A DNA stretch of 64,000 nucleotides. Source: Aporrectodea caliginosa. Lineage: Eukaryota; Annelida; Clitellata; Crassiclitellata; Lumbricidae. Under the pieces are notes generated by a model, which saw only the letters and a program-made list of their open reading frames with translations, was not told where the DNA came from and did no database searches. The position numbers and the translations under genes were made by a program. The DNA lies in contig JACEVL010000342.1 of the NCBI GenBank assembly GCA_020284085.1, positions 310,001 to 374,000 on the forward strand, written 5' to 3'. Numbering within the stretch: position 1 is the stretch's first letter; every line of letters starts with the position of its first letter. Positions 2,226 through 44,097 of the stretch are shown here, piece after piece.

Positions 2226-2277
2226 TTAAACGTACCTTCTCCATTGTAGTTCAAAGGTGAACTTTGATGCGCAACTG

Positions 2278-2281
2278 GTGG

Positions 2282-2365
<84 letters not shown>

Positions 2366-2376
2366 CGACGATGATG
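2278..2376. repeat. (GAT)n microsatellite
   Basis: About thirty GAT/ATG triplets in a row, with two GAC interruptions near the end. They produce poly-Met and poly-Ser open frames that are artefacts. Confidence 0.95.
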
Positions 2377-2814
2377 ATGCGAAAACCGTTGTTTGATGCT
2401 CAAAAAAGCGTCCTGACGGTTGCTGAGTCACGGATGAAGTCACAGATGAAGTTGACGCAGTCTTTTTTTCGGTGACTTTAGACCATGAATGCCAATTACC
2501 CATTATGCGAAAGATGTCCTAAGACTTCACATGTCATACAACTACTGTAGAATCACACGTAGGACATGACGACGGCGATACGACAATATTCTAATACGAT
2601 CTATTTATGGGGCATATAATGGCTTTATGTAAATGACATTCAATTGAAGCCGATGGAATGTTTGTCATGTGATTTTCTCATCTCCTACATGTACATGTCA
2701 TATGACTGAATACACACGCTCACTCACACGCACAAACACACACACACAGACACACACACAAACATATTTATATATATATGATATGCTGAAGACATCAAAT
2801 TCCGCGTGGGAATA
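2377..2814. other. No gene seen; CA/TA-rich tract
   Basis: AT-rich sequence with a CACA-rich tract at about 2708-2763 followed by a short TATA run. No exon, element end or RNA gene was recognised. Confidence 0.5.
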
Positions 2815-4589: not shown

Positions 4590-5256
4590 TTAGGGTGACT
4601 TTTTCAGTTTAATCGGTTCTGCATAAACTGCACTTGGATCCTGTGTAACAACGCCTTCACTTCCAGCTCCATGGTTTACTTCAATCGCTTCCTGATAAAT
4701 AGGATCTGTAGCCTTAACAGCTTTACCGGTTGGTTCAGATGACTTTGTTGGCTTATTCGGTTCAGAAAAAATAGCACTGCGATCACCCAATGGGATTTCT
4801 TTAGCAAGCGAATAAACATTCTGTTGATCACCAGCTGCATTGTGGCTTTGGACGGGTGCAGTTGCTGTAGGCTTTACGTCTGGCTTGTACGGTTCTACAT
4901 AATCTGTGTTGTTGTCTGATGTGGGTGGGTCGAATGGTTGGGAATAAATGGGGCTGACAGACACGGTTTCTTTGTCGGCACTCTTTGGCTTGTGTTGGTC
5001 TTTCTTCTGAAGGTCTAGGTCGGCGTAGACGACGCTTTTGCCAATGTCAACCGCTTCGCAGGTTGGATGAACGCTGGCGTAGATGGTGTTGGACGTTGTA
5101 GGCTGTTGGGTCATTTCCACATCAGAATAGATGATATTACCAGGTGTAACAGTTCCCTCTGACGGTCTGTTGACTGGAACCACGGCTGCATATACGGAAG
5201 AGCCCGCTTCACTCTGTTTTGTGTTCGTCTTGGGTAATCCCTCGTTTCGTCTATCA
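4590..5256 (-). CDS. Receptor exon 8: cytoplasmic tail with ITIM-like and YxxP motifs
   Basis: The acceptor TTTATGTAG is in phase 2, and the exon runs to the TAA at 4592-4590. Tyrosine motifs in order are SVYAAV, IIYSDV, TIYASV and VVYADL (each fitting [S/I/V/L/T]-x-Y-x-x-[V/L]), then YSQP, YVEP, YSLA, FSEP (a YxxP with Phe for Tyr), YQEA and YAEP. ITIMs bind SHP-type phosphatases, and YxxP sites bind Crk/Nck-type SH2 domains. Spacing between the first four is 16-21 residues, as in multi-ITIM receptors. The rest of the tail is hydrophilic and looks disordered. Confidence 0.9.
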
Positions 5257-8200
5257 CTACATAAAACCACAAAATGTGAAGTCTAACCCTATCGCAGCAA
5301 AGTGTGAGACAGACATTATTGGCTTTTGCACATGTCGTGTTTATTTAATCCTTCATTTCCACAGCACCACTTTTAACAAAGACATAAAATCATTATCTTT
5401 GGGGTTATTACTTTATGCCGTAATGTCCTTGTAACACTTTTGTCAGGTCCTTTTGGAGATTCTAAACAGTGCTTTAAAAATATTTCGATACTTAAGTGCA
5501 TTCATTGGAAGCCTATGAAGAAGGCTTAAACAAGTACACATATCCGTTATAAGGATAGTGAGCAAATCCAACAAGTCACAAATAATTTCTAAACCAATTT
5601 CAGACACTTAATGCACGTCATAATCATCACATAAGAACTTTTCTGCCGTGTTTCTTGCACATTGTTTAAGTGAGTTTTTTCTTCAGGTCTCTATTGAAAA
5701 ATTAAACATTTCATTGGCCCTAGAAACTTCTTCTTTCGTTAAAATCACAAAAATAATTATGACAGTCGCTAAATGCTTACGTTGTCCTTTCTCTGCATTC
5801 GACTTTTAACAGAGATGCATGTCTGGTAGCGTATCTATTTATGCATGTCTTTAATATTATATAAATATATTATATAAATTCCTGAAAATTGTCTAAACAT
5901 TTGCAGCTTAGTAACTGAGTGAGCAACTAAGTAAGTAAAGAACAGCATTTTATTATCGGAACAGTACCGTTCGTACCAGTCAATATTCCAACAAAGACAG
6001 CTGTCTCATGTAAGCTATTTGTAAATTTGAAAGCGGTTCAAATCTGTTAAAACACAATTATGTGTAATACATCAATTCCTGTCATTATGAAAACTTACTA
6101 TCTGCGTTTTCGGATGACCAAGATGACGGCAGCGAGAATGAAAACAACCGCCACCAATAATAGAAGGATAAGGAGCATTTGTTGTGTGCTGGATAGTCCT
6201 ACATAAACAATTGAAACACACCGTCGGTAACTCGGTAAAACCAGTATAACTTTAATTATTATCACAACGTAGCCAATTGCAATCGTAAAACTTCAAATTT
6301 CAGAGTGTCATTTGAAAGTCAAGCGCAAGACACCAGCTTATTCACGAGCGCTGACTGTAATGTAGAGCTGGATGTAGCTTTTTAAAGTATAAATGAATGA
6401 TAAAGTGTCGTGTAATGCAATATAACAGAATACAGTAAACAAAGATAAAATATGATGTGATAAAGAATACAGTAAACAAAGATAAAATATGATGTGACAA
6501 AACGCAGCCCAATACTATCTAACATCAAAGAAATTTCTCTGCAGCAGTTGAAAGGTCTACCTTGAAGCTGTGAAACCACGATAGGCTACTAGGAATAGGT
6601 AAACGAATATGTTAACAAATCTATTCTGGCGTAAATAATATTTTAAATTCGTAATAAAAATTACCTGTTGATGGTGATGTTGATGATGAAACGAAAGGAT
6701 TAGTATGATTTACAGAAAAATAATTTGACGACTTTTGAGTAAAATGCGAAGTTGAAACAGTCTTCCAATCAACATCTTCATTTGTATTGTCAGCAATTAT
6801 TGTCGAGGTAAGAGTAGGTACACTGGAAATGACCGGTTTAAACACAGTTGTAGTCACGGTGGTGGCATATGTGGTTGTGGTAGTAGCAATGAGAGTTTCA
6901 GTGGAAGTGATAGTTGTTTTTGGAGTAGTAGCACTGGGAGTTTTAGTGGAAGTGGTAGTGGCGATGGCAGGAGTAGTGTTAATAGCTGGATTTGTGCGAG
7001 TTGTACTAGGTGTTGAGTTTAAGCTTTGTGCTGATGATGTTGCTATTGTTGATAATGATGTTGATGATGGTAGTGAACTAAGCAATTTGGTAGATGTTTT
7101 AACAGGAGAGATTGCAGAGGACTTGAAATCTTCTGATGTCGACGTAGCTATCACTTTAGTAACAAAAGTGTTTGTTGTCGAGGCATTAGAGTTTTCTTCT
7201 GGAAAGAGAAAATCGATAGTAATCAGTTAAAAGAAATGTTGAAGAAGCACGAAACGACTCCTTATAGGCTGGTTTTTACGCGAGAAAAGTGGTGGCGATA
7301 ATAATTGCGCTCAAGACTTGTAGACGGTTGTTACAAAATTAACAATTTTGTTCTTGAGACCACTGTTCCGTGATTGCTGTTATTGTGCGCTGGCGCTACA
7401 GCCAAAAAGTCATTCAGACTCCTTGACTTCTGCTCTTATATGTATCGTCTAACAACATTAAACATTAATATGGCGCTCTTATATTCCAACTGTCTCGAGG
7501 AGGGTTGAGCAACAGAGGACACAGTCCGAAACTTAACAATTAAAGGGTACGATTTGACATCTGGAAATTATTGTTTCAACGAGAGTATCGCTGGAATCTG
7601 CTCGAGGCTTAAACAATTTAACGTGGAGACGACACTGAGATGGATGGATGTATGCACTAAGGGATTCTATTATTAGTAGAAGAATTTTAGCAGAAAAAAC
7701 GTGAATCGACTCAACAAATTAGAAGGAAGTGGAGACTTTGGCACAATTGTTAAGTAAGCCCCACTGATGAAAATATCAAAAGTCCCCATAAATCCATGCT
7801 GTGCTCAAGCCGCCATCTTGGAAAATGGCGGCCTAAATTTGGTGTTTTGGCTGTAACTTGAGAACCGTCATAGCTATTAAAAAACGCAAAAATGGCAAAA
7901 ATATTCTCAATTAAAAGATAAAGAAGGTCTGTATTTAAGGTTTGTTTGTAGGATGAAAAATAAAAAAGTTACACAAAATTAAGTAATTATAATTATGTAT
8001 ATGAATGCAACGTACAAAGTGCAAATGCGCTCCTAATGGTGTTTTAAGATCAAATTCATATCAGTGTCTATGCTAGGATGATATAGTCCTCAGAGTCATC
8101 TAGTGACATCTGAACTAGGGAAACATGCTTCTTTAACTCCGAAACTACTTCTCTACATAGGCATAGGTCCTACATGTATACCGGTATATGTCTATAGGAT

Positions 8201-11200
8201 AGCCTAGGCCTACCTATTGCATTTTGAACTTGCACTCCCTTCAGGTCTTGAAATTGATCATTAAATCTGCCAATATTTAAGATGTATCAGTGTTGTAGAT
8301 AGGCCTTACGTCGTCGTCACCACCACCACCACCACCATCATCATCATCATCGTCATCATCATCATCATCATCATCATAATCATAATCATCATTATGAACT
8401 GACCGAGTATCTGGTTGATTGTCGTCTCCTTGCTCGGTTTAAGTCTGCGTTGCTCGGTTTAAGTCTGCGTATAGGCTAAAGGCTTGGCCACTCTAACGAG
8501 GCAGCGCTTCTTATAGTCTTCTCCGATAAAGTCGATGCCATTGATTCAGGCCAACTGGCGATTCTATCGTTATGGTATGCTGACAGCATTCGACGTAGTC
8601 GACCATTAATTCACCGACTGTCGCACTCGCTTGGAAACAAGGATGGGGTTCAAGTTGGCTTGAATGCAACTTAAAAGGGCACACACAATCTGTCCATTTT
8701 GCAGAGGAGGAGACTGTGGATGTGGTGTTCCACTACGATCAGTGCTTGGTCCTCTCCTCTTTGTACTACACTGTGTCCACGATAAAGTAGATCACTAGAC
8801 TTTGTAAAATATCTTGGTCAATTGTAGTACTATAGGTACTAAATTTGGCGCACATGAGCTTCAGTCTATTCTATCTATACCCTGCAAATTTTATTACAAT
8901 TGATGCAACGGTTACGAGGATATACCCTTATGAAATTGGGTGGTTCAGGAACCAAGTTACCAACACGTAAAACGCATCGACAGATGCGTGCGCGGCTGAT
9001 CATCCTGACTCAGCACCAGTTCTCCGACAGCATTGATATTTGTTTGCGTCCGTGGTTTTGTTTGCGTCTCGTGGTTTCCCTTGCAACTGATCCGGTTGTG
9101 GCAATCTTTTTTAACAGCTGGCTAACACCAGCTAGGGACCAAATTTTCATTGAAATTCTGTAATGAGTCTCCTACGCCATACCCCTTCGTCTCTCTCAAC
9201 TCCTTGATTAAAATCTTGTCCTCTGCACTGAAAACCATTTCTTTACAACCAACTACTGTTACGTAAAACAGGTCTCGTAGTGTAGGCTTAATTGTTTCCG
9301 AAAATGACGCTTATAAACAACAGCCTATCCCTGCGGTTGCCAGAGAAAATGACGTAATTCTATGCGTTTTACGTGTTGGTAACTTGGTTCCTGAACCACC
9401 CAATTTCATAAGGGTATATCCTCGTAACCGTTGCATCAATTGTAATAAAATTTGCAGGGTACAGATAGAATAGACTGAAGTTCATGTGCACCAAATGTAG
9501 TACCTATAGTACTACAATTGACCAAGATATTTAACAAAGTCTAGTGATCTACTTTATCGTGGACACAGTGTATATAGAGGGATGTGTAGAGAATTATAGA
9601 AGCGCGTGGTCCCCTCCACCACTGCTATGCGGACGGTACACAGCTTTAGTTCTTCTGTGAACCATCACAAATCGCTGAACTGAAACAGAGTGCTGCTGTG
9701 CATCGAGCACATATCAGAGTGGATGGCGTCTAACCGTCTCAAACTCAATCCATTCAAGTCAGAGTCCTTATGGTGCACCACCCTCTGGCATCGTCACTTG
9801 ACGACAGTACCTTTGCCCATAGTGATGCAGAAGTTCGACCAGCTGAAACCATCCGCAACATGGGAGTCCACTTTGACAGCTGTGGCACCATGACGGCCTA
9901 TGTAAGTCAACTTGTCTTAGGCTGTTTTTTTAACCAACCACGTTGTGTTAAAACCATCCACAGATTCATTCTAACCTCAACCGCCATCATCTTGGTCAAC
10001 AGCTTCATAGTCTCCAGGTTAACTACTGCACCAACATACTGGCGGATCTGTCGACTTGTCGGCTAGAACAGATACAAGTCGGTGCTTGACTCTGCTGCAG
10101 TGCTGCACGTCTCTTATAGCCCTATGGAATGGATCAACACGATCCGGACATTACCTTCTGCAGCGCAACATTCTACACTGGTTGCGTGTTCTTATGCGTA
10201 TTACCTACAAACTGTGCTTGATAATCTACAAAGCACTACTATCTTATGCCAGACTACATCTCAGACTTCTGCATTCGGGTATCAGACAACCGGAACAGAT
10301 GTTGGCTATAATAATCATCTACAAAATTATCAACTACACGTCTCACAGTCTATAGTCTACAAGGTTTGGCGACTGTTCCTTATCTGACGCTGGACCCACT
10401 GCATGTAACAGTCTTCCTGACCATGCGAAGAATGCACCATCTCTGAAAACATTTAGATCACAGCTCAAGACCTATCCTTTTTCAAATATCAGGTGACCGC
10501 CATTGATTCTATGAACTCATGTAGGCCTACAGTTCCCTCTTCAGCCTCATCTGTGCTATGTCGCTACATAAACCGTCTTATTATTATTATTTTTTTATTA
10601 TTATTATTAATTATGGAAACTTTTGATATTTTCGTCAGTATTTTGATCTTAAATCACTGTTCGCAGCACATTATTTGTTTTTCTAGCCATAAAACCTATA
10701 TGAGCTTCCTATGTCGCAATTGTCGCATTGAAATACATAATTATAATTATTTAATCTTTGTGTAACTTTTTTATTTTACATCATACAAACAAAAGTTAAA
10801 TACAAAACTTCTTTATCTTTTAATGGAGATTATTTGTGCCTTTTTGCGTTTTTAATAGCTATGACGGTTCTCAAGTTACAGCCGAAAAACAGAATTTAGG
10901 CCGCCATTTTCCAAGATGGCGGCTTGAGCACAGCATGGATTTATGGGGACTTTTGATATTTTCATCAGTGGGGCTTACTTAACAACTGTGCCAAGTCTTC
11001 ACTTCCTTCTAATTTGTTGAGTCGAATTTCCTATAATTCCTCCACTATATAGCTCAGTCGATGAACTGTGATTGCAGCTTAAGCAGAGTTGCTGATGTCT
11101 ATAGTTGTTGCGGTCTGTTGAAGTACTATTAGACATAACCAGCCGACAGCTGTGTAGTTGAAGTGCTTTTACCCTAAGAGATTTATGTCTGCAACTCGTA

Positions 11201-14200
11201 CGGAAGCTGTAAACAACATGCGCATTTGATTTGCATTTAGAGCACTTAGTCCATAAGACACACCTTTTTGGCAGACAATGGCATAACTGTGGTTGCAGTT
11301 GCAAGTCGACCATTTGCGGTCAATTGCTGCTGCTGCACATGTAGTTGTTCCGTTTCCTGTGCTGCATTGCGGACTAAAGCAGATGCATTGCTTGTCAGAA
11401 GACTCGTCAGGGATACCACTTTTCCAGTTAGTGTAAGTGATTGCAGAACCTAATTATACAAAAGAAGAAACAATACGAAAGGAGTCTTTGAAGATCGTTT
11501 AAATCGCCAACTTTTTGTTAGATGTTGGGTTTAATATTTAGGATATTTAATCGCCAACTGTCTCGTTATATCTCGGTTTTAATATACCGAATAATTATGC
11601 GAGCTTCACTTGCCTTTTTCGGTTTCTGTTCCACAAAGAATTGACAATAAAGAATTTGATTGAAAGCCGTTATTAACAAAAGAACTTGGATGCTGTTTTT
11701 TATTATAAACTTCTCTGAATACTTTGGCATAAATTTATTGTCTCGCACCTATGAATTATTGTACAGCATTGCATTGTTCTACTACACTTAAATCATATTA
11801 TAGCGCCATGTCATAATATTGAAGGCATCAATCGACGATCGCTTAGAGAGATAACGGAAACTCGTACTCTGAAAGCTATCACGTAAGCACAAGATCTCTC
11901 TCTATTCTGCTCTGTCACTTTGCCTTTTCGTTCACAGCTTCAGACATCTTTTCAAATTCCTAATCCTCCGCAGGGTGCCTCTGTTTATTAGCGTAGTCAT
12001 CATCACAATTTTGACTTGATTATACGTCTTGGTTTTGATTCGTCCAAGGTTTGTGAGTATTAAAACCTTGTGCCTCACATTAGTTTGGTTGGCCAAAGGT
12101 TTAGGAAGGCGCAAACCTGTGTGAGTTAAAGTTTGATTAATTGAAAAAATTAATCTCAATTCGTAGCTGTCTGAGAATGGCCACCAGTGAAATTGATGAA
12201 AAAGTTAAATGCAAAGTGAGAAATGCGACGAGAGAACATTTATGCAAAATGCTAGTAATCTCATCAATCATTCAGATTTGTACAACACCAAGCATGCTCA
12301 GTGCGACTCACCGTGTATCCGTTAATTCTAGAGTATGTCAATATACATCACCTGTGCTGTTCCAAATCCACTTATTTCGGTGAAGTCCAATCCAATATTT
12401 CTGGTTTTCTTTCAGCGATAACAATTCTTCTGTCGCTTGGAGATCCTTAATAGAAGCCAAGTCTCCTCCGGATCGTAAGCACTTCTTTCGGGCATCATAC
12501 CAATTGAGAAGATCTTCATTTGCGATGTAAAGTTTATTGTCTTGTCGCTGACTGAAGGCTGATTTCGAATATGTAATAGCAATTGAAGTTAGTCATTAGT
12601 AAAATTAACCGACTTCTGCTTAACTAGTCTAGAGAACATTAGCTTTGATTTCTGCATTGGCAGTGGCGAATTTATGTCTACAAAACAATCTGCTTTCTTG
12701 CACTGCGCTATACTTCCGATACTTCCTATGCGGATCCTTGCGCATCCAACTAAATCAAGTTCAAGATCAGTTCTACTTGGGCGACTTTGTTCATCATCGC
12801 TTTGTTAACGATGAATTAGCGCTTTCCGCATAGTCCCATCTATGAGAAATTCACAACTGTCTGCCTAAATATTTCGGCTCTTCTTGGTCCTTCACTTCTT
12901 ATTTTCTGACTACCGAAGCAACTCAGGAAGTCATCTTTGCGGATATCTTATCTTGAATTGTCGCTACATAAATATCTTAAATATCACGAAAGTAATAATA
13001 ATATCTCATAGGCCTAATCAAACTTAGCAATGGTAGTACCGGTAATTACAAATTGTTAGATAGAAAATCTAAAAAAGTACTTGAATAATCGCATATGTAG
13101 TCAAACCTCAATATGTCGTCACCAAAACAGTAGGCAAGTTAAATATACCGACATCCGTCAAACTGCTCTAGAGAATATTAGCCAATCTCTCCATTGGAAG
13201 TGTGGAATTACGTCTACAAAGTATTCTGCTTACTCGCACTATGCTATGCTTCAGATAACGCAGAGATATTCTGCTCCCAAACATCCAACTAGATCAAGTT
13301 CAAGATCAGTTCCAATTGGCCGGTTTTTCACCATCTGCTCCTCAAAGATAGGTCTACACTAGAACTTTCTGTTTTAGGTTCATCTGTGAAAAATTCTCAA
13401 ATTCCAGCTTAAATTCTTCGGCTCTATTTGGTCCCTTGTCTCACTTCCAAAACAACTGATTCATCTTTCCGGACACCTTGTATAGAATTGTCGCAACATA
13501 AACATCGTAAATATCTCGAAACTAATAACAGTAGCTAATGAACTAAGTTATGGCAGTAGTTGCAAATTAAACAAGACTTAGTATAAATCCGTAAATGCAC
13601 CTGAATATTTGCATAATTATGTAGCCAAACCGGGACGTGACGTTACTAAAGCAGTAGGCCAGTGATTTTCCATGCTTCGATTCCACACAAGCTCCATCAT
13701 GAAACTGTTCGGGTATATTACTGGCATCTGAAAGACATAAGTGATTGCTAGTAAATCATGATGACAAGCCGCCAATCATTAAACAATGTATCATTTAAGG
13801 GCGGCGGTTAAGACTACAGCAGAGGGAAGAGGGACATGCATTGACCGCACACTGTCAGCGGGAAGACCAGTAGGGGAGGGAAAAGATTGATACATCCGAC
13901 CTGACCTAAACAGGTGAAGCAGCTAACAGTTTAAACCAATGACAACTTCTATGGTATGCACATGTATATGCAGAAGATCAAACAAACGTGTGTTTAATTT
14001 TAGTAATATAATGTTAAAAACGCATCGATCGATCATCGAACACGAGTAACAAAATGATCGCGTCGCTAATACATTTCAAGTGCAATTCTGAATGAATGCC
14101 CCTTTCTTCAACATACTTTTCTTCTTCCAGCTGAGGACCTGCGTCAACAATGGATAACTTTCCAGCTGAGGACCTGCGTCAACAATGGATAATTTAGTCA

Positions 14201-15991
14201 TGATGGAAATTGTAACCTCAGTGATCAAAAAGACAATGTTGGATGTGTACTGGAGGTGTATGATTTTCAGTCGGAGAGTGGAAAACGCACATTGATCTAC
14301 AACTGTCTACATGTGACACGAAGCCAGTGCCAAAGTTTTTTCGCCTGTGGCGGTCACGGATGATGTCATAGTCTTGATAATCTCTGTGAAGAGCAGAGTT
14401 CTAGGCCTAGTCTATAACTTACGGAATACGCCCAATATTCAGCCTGGCGATATTCAACTGCGATTTTTGTGTTTTGAGAGTTTATGTTGTTGTTGTCACT
14501 TATATAATTTATTATATATATTATATATATATAGTTTGTGAATAGATTATATGAATCAATAAACCAAGAACCATGTTACTTCTCATTTGTAGTGGAACTC
14601 ACGAAACGTACCTTGTGATACGTCCGGAAAATACGAATGGCCATTAACCCAAGACCATGCCTGACTTTCATTTGCCGAGAGCTTTCGTGCGTCCGTGATG
14701 ATTGCCTCATTCTGTAACACTTGCCTGCTTATGAAACCCTCGACAACTCTTTGCATTTCTAGGCTTTTAATGGCGATCAGAGAGGAACCTGGAACATGTA
14801 ATTTGCATAGGTCACTGGCTTCTTCGAAAGGCTTAAGCTCTGGATGTCCGTTGTTTGCAAGAATTGTTGTAAAGCAAGTCTTTCCAGGAAGTGTGTTAAT
14901 GCAGCGGGGCATATTAGGCCTAGGTATTCTTGTATGAGAAGTCTGGCACTGTGTCACTTTCAATGACATCCACAAACCTAGATGAACGAAAAGCAGGCCT
15001 ATTATTAGAAAAAACACAAATCACACATCATCATAGATGCAGTGGCGTAACGAAGGGGGTCCCCGGGCGCAAAATTAGCTTTCAGTGATACACAGTACTA
15101 TGACAAGAACGATTAAAAGTCAACAAGAAAATTAAAAGGGGCCCAGTCGTCAGCTCTTGACCTTGGGCGCTGAAACCCTGCGTCACGCCACTGTAGCCTT
15201 ACATTCACCGAAGTCCATATTGCAAAATATGTACATAGATACCAAATCTAAGGCAAGATGAAAATTCAATTGTTTTGTGACCGAGTCAAATGAACATTTT
15301 TCTGCTAAGGCACAACAACTGATCTTTGATTCAAAATCAAATAAACAATGTTAAGTCTAATTATGTACTTACATGCCCCAAACGATAACTATTACGTAAC
15401 GGTAGGCTTACATAACTCTTACAGCGGGATCTTAAAACGTAATCCTCCATGTTTACGTGTATGATTCAAATCGAGTCTTCTGACAACCTTGTTCTAGATG
15501 TAAAACTTGTATTATTATGCATGCAATTAAACATACGTTTATCCTGTTCTTTGGACAGTTATTTTGGAACTGGTCTATTTCTGTTATAGCACTCGTAAGG
15601 GTATTTAGATTGATAATCTATTAAGACAGGTATGAATGTGTGGATAAACGTAAAGTATCTCATCTTCAAGGCGGAGGATATGAGGGGCGTTTTGAATAAG
15701 TGCATTTAAAGACACTTTGAAAAAATTGCTAAACAAAGTTAAACTCAACTGTGCGTATATGCTGTAGATGCATATTATCCAGAATGCAGAATGCAACTAA
15801 CGCCCACCCATCTCAGAAGCTGACTCGATACTGGAAGACAGAACTTAATCACGAAAGCGGGTTACAATTTGATGATACAATAGGCTACTTGCATTATAAC
15901 AGAAGGGTTTATTATAGTTTCTAAAATATAAGATATCTATTCACTTACCAGCAATCAGGCTTACAAACAGATTCCCAAACAACTGTTTCAT
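4590..15991 (-). CDS. C-type-lectin-like receptor with mucin stalk and multi-ITIM tail (8 exons, 747 codons)
   Basis: Join 15991-15949, 14998-14612, 13727-13601, 12551-12352, 11449-11264, 7198-6665, 6198-6099, 5256-4590. The exons total 2244 bases, exactly 748 codons including the stop. Every intron is GT-AG and every phase matches (1,1,2,1,1,1,2). Predicted order: signal peptide (about 1-31), CTLD1 (about 47-185), CTLD2 (about 194-313), Ser/Thr/Pro stalk (315-493), transmembrane segment (about 500-521), Arg/Lys stop-transfer, tail (526-747). Four ITIM-like sites sit at Tyr548, 569, 585 and 603, with YxxP sites at 630, 645 and 737. Known ITIMs recruit SH2 phosphatases, so an inhibitory cell-surface receptor is the natural reading. 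The ligand is unknown: no EPN/QPD sugar motif and no WND triplet are present. The model was assembled by eye. Exons 1 and 3 are the least certain. A decayed paralogue lies at 22465-24153. Confidence 0.8.
5257..6098 (-). other. Receptor intron 7
   Basis: AT-rich intron with no recognised element. A short palindromic AT stretch lies at 5855-5880. Confidence 0.6.
6099..6198 (-). CDS. Receptor exon 7: transmembrane segment
   Basis: A 100-base exon between TTTATGTAG and TA|GTAAGT. It encodes LSSTQQ, then about 22 hydrophobic residues (MLLILLLLVAVV followed by FILAAVILVI) and RKRR, a type I membrane anchor with a positive stop-transfer. A degraded copy at 24080-24153 has lost the donor GT. Confidence 0.9.
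6665..7198 (-). CDS. Receptor exon 6: Ser/Thr/Pro-rich mucin-like stalk
   Basis: Phase 1-1 exon of exactly 178 codons after the acceptor TTCTCTTTCCAG. The peptide is dominated by Ser and Thr with Pro, Ala and Val in irregular repeats (TTTTTYATTVTTTV and similar) and has no cysteine, as expected for an O-glycosylated stalk that lifts the lectin domains off the membrane. It has a few N-glycosylation sequons (NAS near the start, NHT near the end). The plus strand shows a long Val-rich shadow frame caused by the same composition. Confidence 0.8.
8312..8392. repeat. CAC/CAT trinucleotide microsatellite
   Basis: A run of CAC triplets passes into CAT triplets with single interruptions, inside the foldback element. 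Confidence 0.9.
8398..10500 (+). mobile_element. CR1/L2-type LINE fragment, interrupted and degenerate
   Basis: Broken frames follow the order of a CR1/L2 reverse transcriptase. NEAALLIVFSDKVDAIDSGQ and LAILSLL resemble the palm region, VLGPLLFVL follows at the MITE boundary, then YADG at the catalytic YADD position, SEWMASNRLKLNPFKSE, LHWLRVLMRITYKLCLIIYK, and a final FRSQLKTYPF. The DD-to-DG change and several frameshifts make it dead. The MITE at 8769-9570 sits between VLGPLLF and YADG. A 20-bp direct repeat (TGCTCGGTTTAAGTCTGCGT) occurs near its start. Confidence 0.65.
8769..9570. mobile_element. Tc1/mariner-type MITE with 209-bp inverted repeats
   Basis: TA dinucleotides flank the element (8767-8768 and 9571-9572). 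The ends begin CACTGTGTCCACGATAAAGT. Arms 8769-8977 and 9362-9570 are almost perfect reverse complements. The middle 384 bases have no convincing transposase. The TA target and the CACTG-type end place it with Tc1/mariner. It interrupts a LINE reading frame, so it is younger than that LINE. Confidence 0.85.
11264..11449 (-). CDS. Receptor exon 5: C-terminal half of C-type-lectin-like domain 2
   Basis: Phase 1-1 exon of 186 bases. Key stretches are ITYTNWKSGIPDE, where IPD replaces the EPN/QPD sugar-specificity triplet, and KWSTCNCNHSYAIVCQK, which matches the closing strand and final cysteine of the fold. There are extra cysteines (Cys274, 276, 281, 290, 304) compared with the usual pattern, so additional or rearranged disulphides are possible. 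The WND calcium motif is absent. The donor is AAAG|GTGTGT. Confidence 0.85.
11450..12351 (-). other. Receptor intron 4
   Basis: AT-rich intron. No transposon ends or extra exons were recognised. Confidence 0.5.
12352..12551 (-). CDS. Receptor exon 4: N-terminal half of C-type-lectin-like domain 2
   Basis: Clear CTLD content: LNWYDARKKCLRSGGDLASI, then QATEELLSL, YWIGLHRNKWIWN and a glycosylation sequon NST. These correspond to the family's helix with first cysteine, the LASI strand, the WIGL core motif and the WxW pair. The acceptor is CCTTCAG|T in phase 2, with ACTAAC about 35 bases upstream as a likely branch point. The donor is ACAG|GTGATG in phase 1. This is the less diverged of the two lectin domains. 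Confidence 0.85.
12598..13600. repeat. About 530-bp tandem duplication inside intron 3
   Basis: Block 12630-13150 is collinear with 13165-13690. Shared landmarks are TCTAGAGAA, ATCAAGTTCAAGATCAGTTC (AATCAAG in one copy), ATTTCGGCTC against CTTCGGCTC, and GAATTGTCGC with ACATAAA. Identity is moderate, so the event is old. The duplicated unit includes exon 3 and its surrounding intron. Confidence 0.7.
13081..13182 (-). pseudogene. Decayed duplicate of receptor exon 3
   Basis: Similar to exon 3: EQFDG aligns with EQFHDG, and LAYCFGDDILRFDYICD with LAYCFSNVTSRFGYIIM. The copy keeps the final YIC cysteine that exon 3 lacks. It carries an in-frame TAA just before the LAYCF stretch and is six codons shorter. 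The donor is a weak TCAA|GTAC. It lies about 520 bases from exon 3, and similarity continues through the flanking intron, so the whole block was duplicated. A further truncated copy of the exon start is at about 12601-12645. Confidence 0.65.
13601..13727 (-). CDS. Receptor exon 3: C-terminal half of C-type-lectin-like domain 1
   Basis: The acceptor TTTCAG (phase 1) and the donor TTCAG|GTGCAT (phase 2) enclose 42 codons without a stop. The peptide contains GACVESKHGKSLAYCF and ends RFGYIIMQIF, at the place where the family normally has FGYICE. The last structural cysteine is therefore missing. Phase 2 matches the TTCAG|T acceptor of exon 4. Two decayed copies of this exon lie in the next intron. 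Confidence 0.65.
13728..14611 (-). other. Receptor intron 2 with a 34-bp direct repeat
   Basis: Two adjacent copies of a 34-base unit at 14126-14159 and 14160-14193, differing at one or two bases, core CAGCTGAGGACCTGCGTC. A TATA-rich run is at 14507-14533. Otherwise nothing was recognised. Confidence 0.6.
14612..14998 (-). CDS. Receptor exon 2: N-terminal half of C-type-lectin-like domain 1
   Basis: Symmetrical phase 1-1 exon of 387 bases. After the signal peptide end come CINTLPGKTC and PFEEASDLCKL (aligned to the family's W/F-x-x-A-x-x-x-C helix), then LIAIKSLEMQ (like LASIxSxEQ) and WSWVNG (like WxWxDG). The WIGL motif is absent; a diverged EAIITDARKL lies about there. The donor is CAAG|GTACGT. 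An alternative in-phase acceptor at 14977 would shorten the signal peptide by seven residues. A hAT-like MITE ends 41 bases upstream of the acceptor. Confidence 0.8.
15040..15193. mobile_element. Short MITE, hAT-like ends, in receptor intron 1
   Basis: The ends are CAGTGGCGTAACGAAGGG and, reverse-complemented, CAGTGGCGTGACGCAGGG, so the inverted repeat has two mismatches. The body is 154 bases. An 8-bp target duplication is not evident. Ends of the CAGTGGCG type are common in hAT MITEs. It lies 41 bases upstream of the exon 2 acceptor. Confidence 0.55.
15949..15991 (-). CDS. Receptor exon 1: start codon and first half of signal peptide
   Basis: An ATG at 15991 opens MKQLFGNLFVSLIA, followed by the donor G|GTAAGT in phase 1. 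Joined to exon 2 it continues GLLFVHLGLWMSL, giving a continuous hydrophobic core of a signal peptide with cleavage expected near Gln31. The start was chosen because it is the first ATG in a frame that leads to a strong donor of the right phase. The 5' untranslated region and promoter are not defined. Confidence 0.65.
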
Positions 15992-22320: not shown

Positions 22321-22464
22321 ACATCATGCTAAAGTATATAAATTAATATTATACAAACATAATGGCTGAGGTTTGTTCTCGTGGGAGTTTCGATGAGAAG
22401 AAAACAAATCACAAAATGGCCATTCAGACATAATGTCGCCTATATGATTGAGACGACTTTTATC

Positions 22465-22857
22465 GGCCGTGCATAAACTGCACTTAGATCTTGTGTACCA
22501 CTGCCTCCACTTGTAGCACTAAGTTGTACTTCATTCGCTTCCAGATAATACGCGGGTGTCTCTTAAAGTGTGGACTAAATGGGATTGAGACAGTTGGCTC
22601 TTTTGATGGGCACTCCTTGGCATTTCTTAGATTTCGTGTGGATCAACGTAGACGACGCTTATGTCGACGTCTACCGCTTCGCATGTTGGCGTAGATGGTG
22701 CTGTTGGAACGCATTGGATGTTGGGTCAATTCCAATTCAGTATAGATAGGAATAGCATCATCGGACGGTCTTTTGTTACGAACCATCGCTTCATATTCCG
22801 CTTCATTCTGATCTGTCTTCTTCAACGGCGATGCCTCGTTTCGTCCAGCGCTACATA
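22465..22857 (-). pseudogene. Decayed paralogue of receptor exon 8 (cytoplasmic tail)
   Basis: It begins after the same acceptor TTTATGTAG. RNEASPLKKTDQNEAEYEAM aligns with the start of exon 8, PIYTELELTQ with the second ITIM block, and STIYAN with the third. An 11-base deletion then shifts the frame: TCEAVD-VVY content continues in another frame, and a GTQDLSAVYARPI end matches GVVTQDPSAVYAEPI. Further stops and deletions are present. Two ITIM-like sites (AEYEAM, PIYTEL) remain upstream of the shift. Confidence 0.8.
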
Positions 22858-22879
22858 AAACCACGTGAAGCATAGTCTT

Positions 22880-24216: not shown

Positions 24217-25342
24217 TTATGGATGGATGAGGAAGAAAGGCCATGGGTTTTGAGTTTTCTTATAGCATAAAAAGAGGAGGAGCAAGTTGCTGTCAGGTGG
24301 TCTATGGGCTGTGAGTTTGAGGTTATCTTGAAGGATGACACCCAGTATTTTCAAAGTTTTAACTCGGGTAATACTAGGTAATGGAGGAGGAGGGTCAAAT
24401 TGGTGTCGAGGGCGGAAAATGATCATTTCTTTAGATTTAGAGCTATTTAAGGTAAGATTATTGGCAGAAGCCCAGGTAGAGATTAAATGCAGTTCAGATG
24501 GAATAGTATGAGCTTGAGAGGAACCAGTAAGGAGGTAAGTGTCGTCTGCAAATTTGAGCATAAGATTAAGGGGCTGAGCAGGATGCAGGTCTGAACCAGT
24601 AATGGAGAAATTGGTAGGTCCTAAGACAGAGCCTTGAACTATACTAGCATTGATTTTGAGCAGAGATGAAGAGTGACCTTTGAATATAGTGAGGTGTGAG
24701 CGTTCAAGATGATATTCAACTAGCCAGTTATAGATTTGGTCTGGGATATCAAGAGTGGAGATTTTGTCAAATAGGGCAGAGTGCTTAACAGAGTCAAATG
24801 CTTTGGAGAAGTCAAGGGAGATTATTGAGACATATTCGTTGGTTTTTAGGAGGATTTGTGTATGATGTATGATAGATATTATGGCTGCAGAGGTGGAACC
24901 AGTGGGTCTGAAAGCAAATTGATCTGAAACTAGGGATTCAAGGGGAGCTTGAGTAAGGGTAGGGTATATAAATCTCTGAACTATTTGCTTTTCGACTATT
25001 CTGGAGAGAACAGGGAGGATGGAAATTGGACGGAAGTCAGCATTTTGAGAGGGGGAGTTTGTTTTAGCTTTTGGCCGAATGATGGCTACTTTCCATTGGG
25101 GAGGGATAAAGTGGGATAGGAATGAGAGATTGATAAGGTGAGAGAGAGGTAATGAAAAGAATGGGGCAGTGAGTCTAAGAAACCAAGCAGGTAGGTTGTC
25201 ATATCCAGTGGCAGTAGGATGCAAATGGTCGAGAAGATAGAATAGTTGGTATTCTTCAATGAAGGGGTATTTGGGAGGGGCTGTGAGTCGGAAATTGGGA
25301 GGCGAGTAGTTTTGGTCGGTGGAGATAGAGGAGTAATGGAGG
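24217..25342 (-). pseudogene. LINE reverse transcriptase domain
   Basis: About 375 codons open apart from the end. Fingers and palm motifs are intact, including the FADD catalytic pair. The frame continues upstream of its first ATG (FRLTAPPKYPFIEEYQLFYL) to the TTAA insertion point. A frameshift near 24300 breaks the C-terminal part. Confidence 0.75.
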
Positions 25343-25346
25343 TTAA

Positions 25347-26194
25347 CCCTTGAACGGTAACCTTTTTTTTACACCGGTTGCTTTCCTGGGGGTGTTTTCT
25401 AGTAAGGGGTAACTACTGTTGTTTGTGAAGTAGGAACGAATTTTTCTAATTACAACGATACAGTACATCATAGTTTGATAATATTCTTTGTATTTAACAC
25501 GGATATTCTATGCAGATGACTGACGTCATTACTATAATGACGTCATTGCGTCGTTATCACATCAGCCGTCTGTTGCTCGTGCAATGTTGTCTGTTGGGGT
25601 GCATCCCGTGTTACTCAAACCGGAGTCGCAGAAGTCGAGAAAGCGTGGTCGATGTCATGCGTGCCCCAGTTAAAAAAGATATAAAAGTTGAAAACCAATG
25701 CACTGAATGTGAACAATTTGTTTGTCAGCAGCATGCTGAAAAGAAGCTAATATGTAAGAGATGTAGGCCTACAATTGAAGACGTCTTAGAAGACAGTCAG
25801 TAGAAGATGAAAGGCATGCTGTTACATTTATGGTTGCTGACATGTAGTGTACATAAAAGATAACATTACCTGAGCTTTTATTTCGTATGTTATAGGTTTA
25901 TAGATGGCATTATGTTATTTGTTTGCATGTGGACTAACGAATTTCAGATTCTTCTTTGCTTGAAATAGTATTATGCAATTATTTTTCTTCATAACATCTC
26001 GTTTTTCGCCGCCATATTGAAAATATGTTAAATATGGTGACAGTATGCACAATGTTTTTTACATAATTTGAAGCATGGTCAATGTCAGGAAAAGTCACCA
26101 AAGCGATTGTAGAAAATTTCTAGTACTTCCTTTAATAGCAGCAGTTATAACAGCCGGGGGTAGAAATTAGTCGCCCCAGGTTACCGTTCAAGGG
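25347..26194 (+). mobile_element. Internally deleted piggyBac-like element
   Basis: TTAA flanks at 25343-25346 and 26195-26198 with a perfect 17-bp terminal inverted repeat CCCTTGAACGGTAACCT. Total 848 bases. It contains one frame that looks like the end of a piggyBac transposase. It interrupts a LINE, so it is the younger insertion. Confidence 0.85.
25510..25803 (+). pseudogene. PiggyBac transposase C-terminal Cys-rich remnant
   Basis: A 97-codon frame. The last third has the spacing C-x2-C-x4-C-x2-H-x6-C-x2-C (CTEC, VCQQH, CKRC). PiggyBac-family transposases end in a Cys/His zinc-binding domain of this kind, which helps bind the element's ends. The upstream catalytic DDD domain is absent, so this cannot transpose itself. 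The first part (MTSLRRYHISRLLL) may still be transposase-derived. Assignment rests on the cysteine pattern plus location within piggyBac-type ends. Confidence 0.6.
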
Positions 26195-26444: not shown

Positions 26445-27130
26445 CTACTGCCACCCAACCAAATACGGAGGGTCACTTGAAGTAATAGTAATCGTTCTTT
26501 CAGGATAAAATTTGTCCAGAAAACTGAGGGATTCATGGTAAAATTGTTCCCATGCTTCTTTTGGGTTATTAAGGCGGAGTAGATGCTGGGGGTCGTAGTC
26601 TTCAAGGTTAATGAGCAGATTGGCATGTTGATCAGGAGTTCGTTTTCTGAAAGTTTTCTTGATTTTAGACTTGTTCAGGTTTATGATGTTAGGTGATGTG
26701 GAGGCTATGATGGCTTTGTGATCGGTTTTAATCACAGAGCTGACGATTTTGATGTTGCTGTAGATTGGCAGGGAGGTGAGAAGGCGGTCGAGAAAGTTTT
26801 CTCCTCTTGTTGGCTGCATGACAATTGAAGTTAGTCCGGTTAATTCGGATAGTTTATTAATATCCAGTGTGTTAAGGTCTCCAGCAAGAATTATATAAGC
26901 ATTGTCGTTTTTGAGCATTAGTTCATCAATGTTGTTGCCGAGTTGAAGGATGAGAGAAGTCGTTTGATATTTTGGAGCTGGTGGGTGGTATAAAGCTCCA
27001 ACATAGTAGATTTGTCCAGATTTTTCAGTAGTTATCCACAGGAGTTCAAAGTCTTTGGTGCTTTCTTTAGGTTGATGAGGCTGTGCTTTAAGGTGGTTCG
27101 GGGTCAGAAATTTGGTTCGAGATTTGGCTG
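26445..27130 (-). pseudogene. LINE apurinic-type endonuclease, C-terminal part
   Basis: AYIILAGDLN carries the GDxN motif, and IKTDHKAIIAS fits the S/T-D-H catalytic motif. The N-terminal NxxS and ExW motifs are missing by truncation near 27140. Downstream residues (KAWEQFY-like) form the linker to reverse transcriptase. Confidence 0.75.
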
Positions 27131-27709
27131 CTTGCGCCTTCTAGTCAACTCCGCTATAATGAGTAGTGTGCTCGTACACTGTTGGTAAGATGGCCAGACG
27201 GCGAGGGGGAGGACTGGCCACTCGCCCTAAGATGCTGAGGTTAAGGAATTTGAAGCCGCTAAAACTTGACCCATGGCTGACTCTCAGATTAAGCATAAGG
27301 GACTGCGAAGCTGATTATCGTCTCCCCTTATTCTAGCCTACGGACTGGCACTTCTCCATGGTAGGTGGGTTTTGCGCTGCGTGGAGACATCGTGCGACCG
27401 GCCATGTCCGTTAACATTGATAGATAAATAGCGTTGCCCTCTTAAATATTCCAACCTTCGGACTGGCACCACCCTATGTTATGCAGTTTTTCCGGTGTTT
27501 TATCACCATTTTGTGGCCGTCAATGGCCGTTCACTCTTGAAGCCGCATATGGCAGATGATCTAGCGATTGAACGTATTGTCTGAATTTATAGCGTCGGAG
27601 GATTAAGTGTTAAAGGTGTTTTAGACGAGCATTGCATCATCTAGTACTTAGCGACATCTGGGGATTGACGCGCGATGGATAGTCATAATATATTTTTGCA
27701 TTTATTAAG

Positions 27710-33316: not shown

Positions 33317-33547
33317 TGCATATCAACCTCATTGGACTAATGAATTCAGAACATTTAGTCATAAGGACGAATCCACTTATACGCGAACTCAAGAATTTTT
33401 CTCATCTCTTGACATCCCTTTTCAGTCTCCCACATTTCCTACAACAGTACTCCTCCTTGGCTAAACAATAACATTGAAGTCGATATCAGTCTTCACAAAT
33501 CAATAAGTAAGAAAAATGATAATCCTGAACTTCTCCGTCTAATCTCC

Positions 33548-34426
33548 TTGGATCACATGAGCAGATACCAAACATACACGCATATATACACTGATGGTTC
33601 TAAAGCTGGAGATTTGGTCGCTGCTGCTTATACAATTCCTATCCTAAATTTAGATAAGCAAATCCGTCTCTGCAATAGCTCTAGTATATATGCGGCCGAA
33701 TTAACTGCTATTAAGGAAGTCTTTTGTTGGATATCAGAGAATGAAAACCAAGAACTTAAACATTTTGCTATTTTTTCTGACTCCTTAAGTGTTCTTATGT
33801 CTTTTAGAAATTCCTTGTCAAGCTCCAGACCAAACCTTTTACAAGAAACAATAAGAACATTTAATAAAATTAAGATAAGCAAAGTACATTTGATTTGGAT
33901 CCCTAGTCATATAAATATATTAGGTAATGAAAAGGTTGATGCTTTAGCAAAGCAATCACTCAGTTTGCCTATTATTAATTCAACAAATTATCTAGAATTG
34001 CAAGAAGTCTTTTCAATTATAAAATCGCATGTAGTTAACGAATGGCAGAAAATATATGATAGTGATCCTAAGGGTCAACATTATACGTTAATATGTCCTG
34101 TGGTGGACACAAACATCAAATTTGTTGTCTTTAATAGAAAGAAAGAGGTTCAGATTTCAAGATTAAGATTAGGAAAGGTAAATCTAAATGAAAGACTTCT
34201 TCTTATGAAGAAGCATGAAAGTGGTCTTTGTACTTTATGTAAAGTTCCAGAAAACATAAACCATTTATTATTAATTTGTAGAAAAGAAAATATTTCTAAC
34301 ATATTAAGAGATGTATGTGTCTTATATAAAGTAGATTTTAACACTAAGAATTTGCTTGATGTAGGTTGCATACAAAGTGAGGTTTATAGGCTTATAAGTC
34401 TTATTTATAAAGGAAAGGTTGTATAA
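33548..34426 (+). pseudogene. LINE RNase H domain and C-terminal zinc knuckle-like region
   Basis: The 292-codon frame begins near YTHIYTDGSKAG (first Asp), then SIYAAELTAIKE (Glu), FSDSLSVL (Asp) and WIPSHINILGNEKVDALAK (His and last Asp), so all RNase H catalytic residues are present. Toward the end comes CTLCKVPENINHLLLIC, a C-x2-C-x8-H-x4-C arrangement common at the C terminus of I-group and Jockey LINE proteins. The coding part is open, but the element lacks most of its upstream coding region, so it is not autonomous. Confidence 0.8.
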
Positions 34427-36063: not shown

Positions 36064-36790
36064 AGATATTTTGGAGCAAGACCCAGTTGAGACTTGAGCA
36101 TGAGAATGAGAACCTTAACGAGATGTATAATAATTCTGAACAGTTCTCACCGTTCATAGGTCATAATACAATCCAGGCTTCGGACTAGCACTACCCGATC
36201 GTAGGCAACTTTCCGTTGTTTATCAGCATCTTGAAGCGGCCCTGCGAAATGATGTCATTGTACCGTTTTTTAACCACACCCATGCTCGTCGGGACTTCTC
36301 GATTGCGGTGCCACGGATCTCGAATGGTCTCCAGCCCTCTGCTTGTGATACTAATGTTGCTGACTGCATGTATATGCTATATAAATGGCCATATACATGA
36401 TACATACATACATGTTTTCTGTAGACTCTTAAAGACGCCCTTTTGAGCTGTTTGATGGCCACGTGTTGAGCGCTACTAAGAGATTCTTAAGTGGTGCTTT
36501 ATAAATGTCTTCTTACATTGCATTGCACACATTACATTGTCGAGGCTTCAGACTGGCACCACCCGTGGCCGAGATTTTCTTCCATGTAAGTGTAGTTTAA
36601 CGACGCTGTATAACATTACAACGCAAATGATCAGCGTCGCCCTCGGAAGAATGCTCTTTAAGGGATTCAAAACGAGCACTGTGTAATCGATTGTTGCTGT
36701 CCAAGCCTATTCCGTTATGTCCTTTAGGTATTTCTAATCGCTAGATGTCTGCCCGTCCTAGGACGTTAAAGTATAGCCAGCTCTGGCCGG

Positions 36791-36990
36791 CCACTTAAAA
36801 TCAGCCCTCCCTTTCCTTCCTTCCTTCCTTCCTTCCTCCCCTCCCGTCCTTTTCTCGCCATTCTTCCCCACCTCCCACTACTCCTCCCCTCTCCTGCATT
36901 TCCCCTTTCACCTTAGATTCCCATTTTCCCTCCCTCTCCCCACCGCAACCCTTCCCTCCAACCCCCATTCGCCCTTCCCTGCCATATGCC
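36791..36990. repeat. Polypyrimidine tract with (TTCC)n
   Basis: Almost pure C/T for about 190 bases on the plus strand, including a TTCC run at 36812-36835. Repeated at 40627-40825. Confidence 0.85.
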
Positions 36991-37429
36991 GATGGTATGA
37001 AGGGTACAGCCCGTGGCTAACAGAAACAGAAATGCGTGCTGCGAGCTGCCATCTGGCGAATGACGCAGTGAGAAAAGAGCGTTACACGACGCACATGACA
37101 TTTTCTGTGAGTTTATATTATTAATATTTTCATTCATTGCGGTACTTTCGGTTTAACGATGCAGCGTCATAAGATAGATGATTAGCGTCCCTCCTTAATA
37201 ATCCAGTCTTCGGACTGGCACCACCCGATGATAGAGCAGTTTTCTGTTGTTTATCACTTCGTTGTAACGGTCAATGGCCGTTCTCTTCGACCTTACTCTA
37301 TGACATTAGAGGTGTTGGAGAATCTAGGATAAAACGCATTGGCTGATTTCATAGCATCGGAAGAATGCTTGTTAAAGGTGTCTAAGACGAGCATCATATT
37401 ATCGATTGCTTAGCCACATCTTTGTCTTT

Positions 37430-43597: not shown

Positions 43598-43844
43598 TGT
43601 GGCGATCTGGGTGGTCTGGTGCCTTGAGTCCTTCTCTCTTTCACCGACCGTTAGTTTCCCACGCCTTTAGTCTTTATTGCCTCTCTCCCCCGCCGACTGC
43701 CGACTCGACGGACATTAGCGCTTTGGGTGGTCCTCTCTTTCACACGGTCTGTCGGGCGCTTATCTCTCCCCCGCCGACCGCTGAATTGGACTTTACGACT
43801 GCTGCTCTTCGGGCGACCTCTCTCCCCTGCCGGCGGCATCCTTT

Positions 43845-44097
43845 GAGACACCCTCTCCGGGCCGGCAGCGGTTCCTTTGAGACACCCTCTCCGGGCCAAC
43901 AGCGGTTCCTTTGAGACACCCTCTCCGGGCCGGCAGCGGTTCCTTTGAGACACCCTCTCCGGGCCGGCAGCGGTTCCTTTGAGACACCCTCTCCGGGCCG
44001 GCAGCGGTTCCTTTGAGACACCCTCTCCGGGCCGGCAGCGGTTCCTTTGAGACACCCTCTCCGGGCCAACAGCGGTTCCTTTGAGACACCCTCTGTC
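43845..44097. repeat. 34-bp minisatellite (7 full units and a partial)
   Basis: Units start at 43845, 43879, 43913, 43947, 43981, 44015, 44049 and 44083 with GAGACACCCTCTCCGGGCC. Units 2 and 7 share the variant CCAACAGCGG in place of CCGGCAGCGG. Because 34 is not a multiple of three, the minus strand is open in all frames; these are not genes. Confidence 0.95.

Follow-up and report, generated by a model that had tools for sequence, protein, structure and literature searches.

The 64,000-nt stretch of DNA analyzed here (the window; contig C341, positions 310001 to 374000, in a host assembly of 1,097,852,775 bases) carries one copy of a clustered, expanded receptor family that includes pseudogenes. 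The best reading of the family, and in our judgment a likely one, is that its members are type I receptors with two lectin-like domains (CTLDs) and SH2-docking tails. Established are the order of the exons, the minimum size of the family, its clustering and the conservation of the tail tyrosines. The sequence-only reading that preceded this work had described one receptor gene; this gene is one member of a clustered multigene family, in a copy that is probably damaged in CTLD1.

Eight exons on the minus strand join into 2,244 nt, i.e., 748 codons including the stop, for a protein of 747 residues, a count that presupposes an exon 4 start at 12551 and an exon 8 start at 5256. Exon 1 (15949..15991) contains the start codon and the first half of the signal peptide (MKQLFGNLFVSLIA) and ends at a phase-1 donor, GTAAGT. 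When both strands of the window are taken together, there are eight candidates for exons of this type with a hydrophobic core, that of the window gene itself included, and the genomic relative L045 holds a counterpart, MEQLFRLLFVGLLGG, with the donor GTGAGT. Exon 2 (14612..14998) completes the signal peptide and covers the bulk of CTLD1 (residues 15 to 143), and exon 3 (13601..13727) encodes the end of CTLD1. CTLD2 is divided between exon 4 (12352..12551, with an alternative 5′ end at 12558), for its first half starting at residue 186, and exon 5 (11264..11449), for its second half up to residue 314; both exons have genomic relatives. Exon 6 (6665..7198) encodes a stalk of 178 residues, including 35 Ser, 49 Thr and 11 Pro; at 47% Ser plus Thr, the Ser/Thr-rich stalk described initially is borne out. 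Exon 7 (6099..6198) encodes the membrane segment, followed by RKRR. Its 19-residue Kyte-Doolittle mean reaches up to 3.68, with a peak at residues 503 to 521, and relatives of this exon occur in two neighboring copies on the same contig. Exon 8 (4590..5256) encodes the cytoplasmic tail of 222 residues and ends with the stop codon at 4590-4592. Upstream of the membrane segment, the protein comprises a hydrophobic N terminus, two Cys-rich domains of about 130 residues each and the stalk. With a hydrophobic segment at the N terminus and the tail at the C terminus, the single membrane segment and type I layout proposed from the sequence alone are upheld.

The earlier reading had also called for a protein search with the joined translation. 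This search, performed over 5.8 billion proteins, returned a homologue with the full layout, P0001 (618 residues), which is 50% identical to the window protein with 94% coverage of the latter (E = 8.4e-177). P0001 was the sole homologue at E ≤ 0.001 among the 7,995 scored candidates sharing most words, and protein searches with its CTLD part and its tail part as queries gave no match at E ≤ 0.001 besides P0001 itself. Its parts follow the same order as in the window, namely, CTLD1, CTLD2, a Ser/Thr-rich stalk, a membrane segment and a tyrosine-rich tail. Exon 2 is 58% identical to P0001 over 96 residues, and it also has relatives in L044, L045 and L046. The P0001 contig is 2,278 nt long; exon 1 is absent from it, and the first 43 residues of the window protein are missing. 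As content that takes up approximately 10 kb of DNA in the window is contained in one short contig, we infer that P0001 represents either a spliced transcript or a retrocopy; its source label, ‘lgn’, is taken to denote the Logan assemblies. The P0001 stalk is shorter than that of the window protein (111 residues, 36% Ser plus Thr). An alignment-free structure model of P0001 was uninformative (mean pLDDT of 35.8). By tblastn of P0001 and alignment, junctions 2/3, 4/5, 5/6 and 7/8 were closely backed and junction 6/7 roughly so, and an AG was found at the acceptor place in all 12 tail exons examined.

Exons 4 and 5 together match the Pfam profile Lectin_C (PF00059) with 44.4 bits, above the curated cut-off of 22.6. 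The ORF of exon 4 alone matches it at 1.3e-08, and the whole P0001 protein scores 50.9 bits. Mannose receptors lead the best PDB sequence matches of CTLD2, and all eight of its cysteines are common to the window protein and P0001. The CTLD1 of the window gave no Lectin_C match at E ≤ 1, and the ORF of exon 2 is without a Pfam match. When the window CTLD1 and those of three relatives were considered, two of the four sequences matched Lectin_C at E ≤ 1, the best with 19.1 bits, which is below the cut-off of 22.6, over profile positions 2 to 106 of 107, the same positions as those covered by the CTLD1 of P0001; three of the four gave weak RNase_H matches. Against the PDB, a profile of the four sequences had two matches at E ≤ 10, with E values of 0.0059 and 0.087. 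Each of the two is a CTLD, and the better match spans positions 25 to 134 of 135. The CTLD1 of P0001 alone had five matches at E ≤ 10, all CTLDs (E = 0.041 to 0.34), and a two-sequence profile had nine, five CTLDs and four Rab GTPases. Comparison of the CTLD1 and CTLD2 profiles with each other gave no match. Of the pair of CTLDs claimed initially, the second is thus firm, and the first is accepted, with moderate confidence, as a probable diverged CTLD. C-type lectins that bind sugars in a Ca-dependent manner are marked by EPN/QPD and WND motifs. CTLD2 has neither of them in the window protein (GIPD...KWST) or in P0001 (GFPV...KWMT), and a protein ligand is therefore a more likely guess than simple Ca-dependent sugar binding.

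The junction between exons 3 and 4 is strained. The 3′ end of exon 3 in the window is offset, with 4 additional nt relative to both a local decayed duplicate and L045 and 1 additional nt relative to L044, and its frame is shifted. In all five relatives (P0001, L044, L045, L046 and L047), CTLD1 ends with YIC or FIC, where the window reads GYIIMQIF; the terminal Cys residue kept in these five is missing from the window model because of the offset. The exon 3 donor is GTGCAT in the window versus GTAAGT in L045 and GTAAGG in L044. The decayed second copy of the exon 3 3′ end (LAYCFGDDILRFDYICDYS; 13082..13138, minus strand) belongs to a tandem duplication, shifted by approximately 539 bp, which spans the end of exon 3 and the intron and coincides with the strained junction. 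The offset also causes the frame to be lost if the AG at 12558 is used, with 38 stops (computed with the start of exon 8 still at 5250). The AG at 12551, 7 nt inside exon 4, leaves the frame open. L044 has an AG at the place equivalent to 12558, which presumably serves as the acceptor in that copy. The exact phases reported for the window gene thus depend on the AG at 12551: the parts are real and their joining gives 748 codons, as claimed, but the statement that all phases match is strained at this junction.

In the window copy, the end of CTLD1 is probably defective, through a recent frame break or an assembly error, or with rescue via the downstream AG. Either it may be a recent pseudogene, or, if the AG at 12551 is used, its CTLD1 would be devoid of the last disulphide. 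That it is a pseudogene, with a frame-shifted exon 3 and a transcript that ends early or is degraded, is quite possible, if a little short of probable: the offset of exon 3, the loss of the terminal Cys, the GTGCAT donor and the out-of-frame AG at 12558 all point that way, as do the neighboring copies on C341, which bear stops and where no CTLD exons were detected. Such a fate is harder to reconcile with the remaining exons being open, with dN/dS values below 1 in all eight exon comparisons with L044 and L045, and with the availability of an AG that lies 7 nt further in and keeps the frame. Alternatively, the gene may be intact in the animal and its exon 3 sequence affected by a base-call or assembly error. 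This would fit the presence of one lone indel-like difference where the gene is open elsewhere; we regard it as unlikely, as the donor and adjacent bases differ as well, suggesting true divergence. The notion that unrelated open frames were joined by chance might draw on the fact that the junctions were picked by eye and that one is strained, but we deem it extremely improbable. P0001 has the CTLDs, stalk, membrane segment and tail in a single chain, and four genomic relatives keep the order of the CTLD exons as far as they were fetched. Chance joining, which the sequence-only reading had already judged unlikely, is ruled out on these grounds.

A search of the host assembly yielded 51 tail exon matches at E ≤ 0.001, with all 66 candidates scored. 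They merged to 41 places, mostly clustered on C99, C208, C262, C464, C341, C215 and C1502. At 27 of the 41 places, a CTLD2 exon of the same strand lies no more than 30 kb upstream with no tail between (at 24 to 25 kb in one case), and at none of the 41 does one lie within 4 kb downstream of the tail; the other 14 are without a CTLD2 exon by the 30-kb upstream rule. The search for CTLD2 exons gave at least 150 matches, with 150 of 243 candidates scored, and the pairing with tails made use of 69 of the 150, a close group of 33 exon-4 and 36 exon-5 type matches. The clustered tail matches and the CTLD2 exons upstream of them thus argue for a clustered multigene family. Exons 2, 3, 4 and 5 occur in the same order as in the window in L044 (C99) and L045 (C262), and partly fetched relatives agree (exons 2 to 4 in L046 and 3 to 4 in L047). 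Most of the remaining 81 CTLD2 matches listed are 31 to 48% identical and belong to other clusters. CTLD2-like exons of this more divergent kind make up a separate group, located on C98, C359, C338, C695, C1244 and C787 and in a distant part of C464. No tail match was listed on the first six of these contigs, and these distant clusters may carry other tails.

Over 304 kb of C341, no CTLD exon was detected beyond those of the window gene itself. Two copies to the left of the window have stops in the tail; for the neighboring copy, the membrane exon is at C341:308798-308905 and the tail exon, with one stop, at C341:306449-306925. A possible remnant of a stalk exon of this neighboring copy (2237..2470, minus strand) is weak and partly of low complexity, with a best E value of 0.025 with P0001, and it is not among the matches listed for C341. 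A broken relative of exon 8 (22455..22870, minus strand) has stops and a frame gap, with no CTLD exons found nearby in the window, and the comparison of this piece at 22.6 kb with exon 8 showed no codon-position bias (15, 17 and 18 changes).

The window has several other features. The intron that separates exons 5 and 6 has a long inverted repeat (7738-7977 and 10757-10994, with 146 nt at 97% and 89 nt at 89%) around approximately 2.8 kb that contains an inner inverted repeat (8767-8980 and 9359-9572, 97%), an arrangement that looks like a mobile element insertion. Pieces of non-LTR retrotransposons are present at 24217-25368 (minus strand), 26445-27140 (minus strand) and 33413-34426 (plus strand), with a reverse transcriptase domain (RVT_1, 8.2e-27), a weak endonuclease match and RNase H (1.5e-08). 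A stretch is duplicated at approximately 36.8 to 38.3 kb and 40.6 to 42.2 kb, and the translations of the ORFs at 36777-37124 and 40612-40959 are identical, with a shift of 3,835 bases. A 34-bp tandem repeat at 43839-44094 (7.5 copies, 97% matches) is open in several frames, and TAGGCCTA, a sequence associated with echinoderm genomes, is over-represented, with 8 occurrences versus 0.8 expected. No Rfam match and no tRNA were found in the window.

The tail of the window protein contains 11 tyrosines. The consensus sequences are [ILVS]xYxx[ILV] for ITIMs and TxYxx[VI] for ITSMs. ITIM/ITSM-like sites are centered on Y548, Y569, Y585 and Y603, and YxxP sites on Y630, Y645 and Y737. The four ITIM-like sites reported initially are thus present, as three ITIMs and one ITSM-type site, and P0001 has two and one, respectively. 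In 100,000 shuffles, the four sites of the window tail were reached 177 times and the three of P0001 754 times. The number of YxxP sites by itself does not stand out in the window tail (9,229 of 100,000 shuffles) and does so weakly in P0001 (1,259 of 100,000). At all seven tyrosines shared with P0001, the residue at position +3 is the same, an agreement that also arose in 4,628 of 100,000 random sets and is only mildly unusual.

We aligned 13 tails, i.e., those of the window and P0001 and 11 other genomic ones, with L040 used only to its stop and L042 cut at the end. As the genomic tails were picked among the best-scoring matches, the conservation reflects the more intact copies. In seven of the 10 tyrosine columns, every row with a letter at that position has Tyr: Y585, Y603, Y630 and Y645 (13/13 each), Y674 and Y737 (11/11 each) and Y713 (12/12). 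Y569 is present in 12, Y548 in 11 and Y649 in 4 of the 13 tails. Tyrosine is the best-conserved residue type in the tails, with a mean of 0.91. The full ITIM/ITSM consensus is found around Y548 in 4, Y569 in 9, Y585 in 11 and Y603 in all of the 13 tails, with Y569 and Y585 mainly of the ITSM type (8 and 9 tails, respectively). YxxP is kept at Y630 in 11/13, at Y645 in 13/13 and at Y737 in 11/11 tails. The conserved YxxP sites had been overlooked in the earlier account of the tail, and with them it is not simply an inhibitory tail, even though the ITIM-like sites of that account stand. At position 689, the window has Phe (AIFSEP) and the 11 other rows with a letter have Tyr, within YxxP in seven of them; the window copy has lost this tyrosine site. 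The dN/dS ratios (NG86) of the tails are below 1 in all 66 pairs (median, 0.62; range, 0.28 to 0.95), although the upper value, 0.95, is high for a conserved tail, and those of the CTLD exons are below 1 in 12 of 12 comparisons. The copies thus appear to have been under coding constraint, though not strong.

Each receptor would consist of a signal peptide, two CTLDs, a stalk rich in Ser and Thr, a single membrane helix and a long tail whose tyrosines can be phosphorylated. Binding of a ligand by the CTLD pair would cluster the receptors, and a Src-type kinase would then phosphorylate the tail. The proximal ITIM/ITSM-like sites, chiefly Y569, Y585 and Y603, would recruit tandem-SH2 phosphatases, such as an SHP homologue, that damp signaling, and the distal YxxP sites would engage Crk/Nck-type adaptors that act on the cytoskeleton. 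As judged from its motifs, the tail may therefore both damp activation and steer the cytoskeleton. It is possible, though on balance we do not favor this reading, that the protein acts as a receptor in adhesion or phagocytosis instead of inhibition, with a tail that mainly serves as a Crk/Nck-type scaffold for actin remodeling and YxxV/L sequences that mediate endocytosis or generic SH2 docking. The constancy of the YxxP sites at Y645 and Y737 and the family-wide occurrence of NxYSLA and PxYxxA sites are consistent with such a role, as is the example of CD93. This CTLD receptor, also of type I and with a mucin-like stalk, signals via Src, Cbl and Crk according to a review (PMC12428824). The match of the proximal sites to the ITIM/ITSM consensus beyond that seen in shuffles and the presence of this consensus at Y603 in every tail argue against it. 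A doubtful extension is that the genome-wide, clustered repertoire of double-CTLD proteins with ITIM/ITSM tails represents a variable inhibitory or self-recognition system analogous to NK receptor clusters, with the distant CTLD-exon clusters on C98, C359, C338, C695 and C1244 as possible partners with a different signaling sense.

Viewed as an expanded set of type I receptors with paired CTLDs and SH2-docking tails, the window family shares a type I orientation and several CTLDs with the macrophage mannose receptor family, which provides the best PDB matches of CTLD2. Members of that family have at least eight CTLDs together with FN2 and ricin-type domains and a short tail. The inhibitory CTLD receptors of the NK complex and of myeloid cells (Ly49, NKG2A, CLEC12A and DCIR) have a CTLD outside, an ITIM inside and clustered genes, and the window family resembles them in all three respects. 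They are type II proteins with an N-terminal ITIM, a single CTLD, no mucin stalk and few ITIMs; unlike them, the window protein has a hydrophobic segment at the N terminus, two CTLDs and its tail at the C terminus. Oyster CgIgIT receptors bear ITIMs. CgIgIT and CgIgIT2, invertebrate surface receptors of the IgSF that are called inhibitory receptors in titles of papers cited by PMC11999971, differ from the window family by their Ig ectodomain.

In the layout of the ectodomain, CD93 and group XIV are nearest to the window family. Two sources describe the group XIV proteins CD93, thrombomodulin, CD248 and CLEC14A as type I, with an N-terminal CTLD, a mucin-like stalk and one helix (PMC9167495, PMC12428824), and the tail of CD93 as tyrosine phosphorylated and leading to Crk (PMC12428824, PMC9167495). 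In contrast to the window family, group XIV proteins have one CTLD plus EGF repeats, sushi domains in three of the four and a short tail. Nearest in logic are the fester co-receptors (FcoR) of Botryllus, which are likewise type I multigene receptors with ITIM-capable tails: according to a review, they form a multigene family in one locus and have long tails with possible ITIMs and YxxI/L/V sequences (PMC12065747). Their ectodomains are made of Ig and sushi domains rather than CTLDs, many of the loci are said to encode SH2 domains, and the term YxxP is absent from the main text of the review (PMC12065747). No Pfam match to Ig, sushi or EGF domains was obtained in P0001 or in five exon ORFs of the window gene (exons 2, 4, 5, 6 and 8).

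None of the FcoR, group XIV and oyster IgIT proteins has the same set of parts as the window family. No invertebrate CTLD receptor with ITIMs was found in searches of an open-licence library, although one may be in print elsewhere. Should the tails signal in the manner implied by their motifs, a large repertoire would couple lectin-like recognition to a tail with ITIM/ITSM and YxxP sites in a probable invertebrate, and the clusters and residues are now named concretely for testing. Such a system would place ITIM-type control on a duplicated recognition family independently of both the vertebrate NK complex and the Ig-type receptors of Botryllus and Hydractinia.
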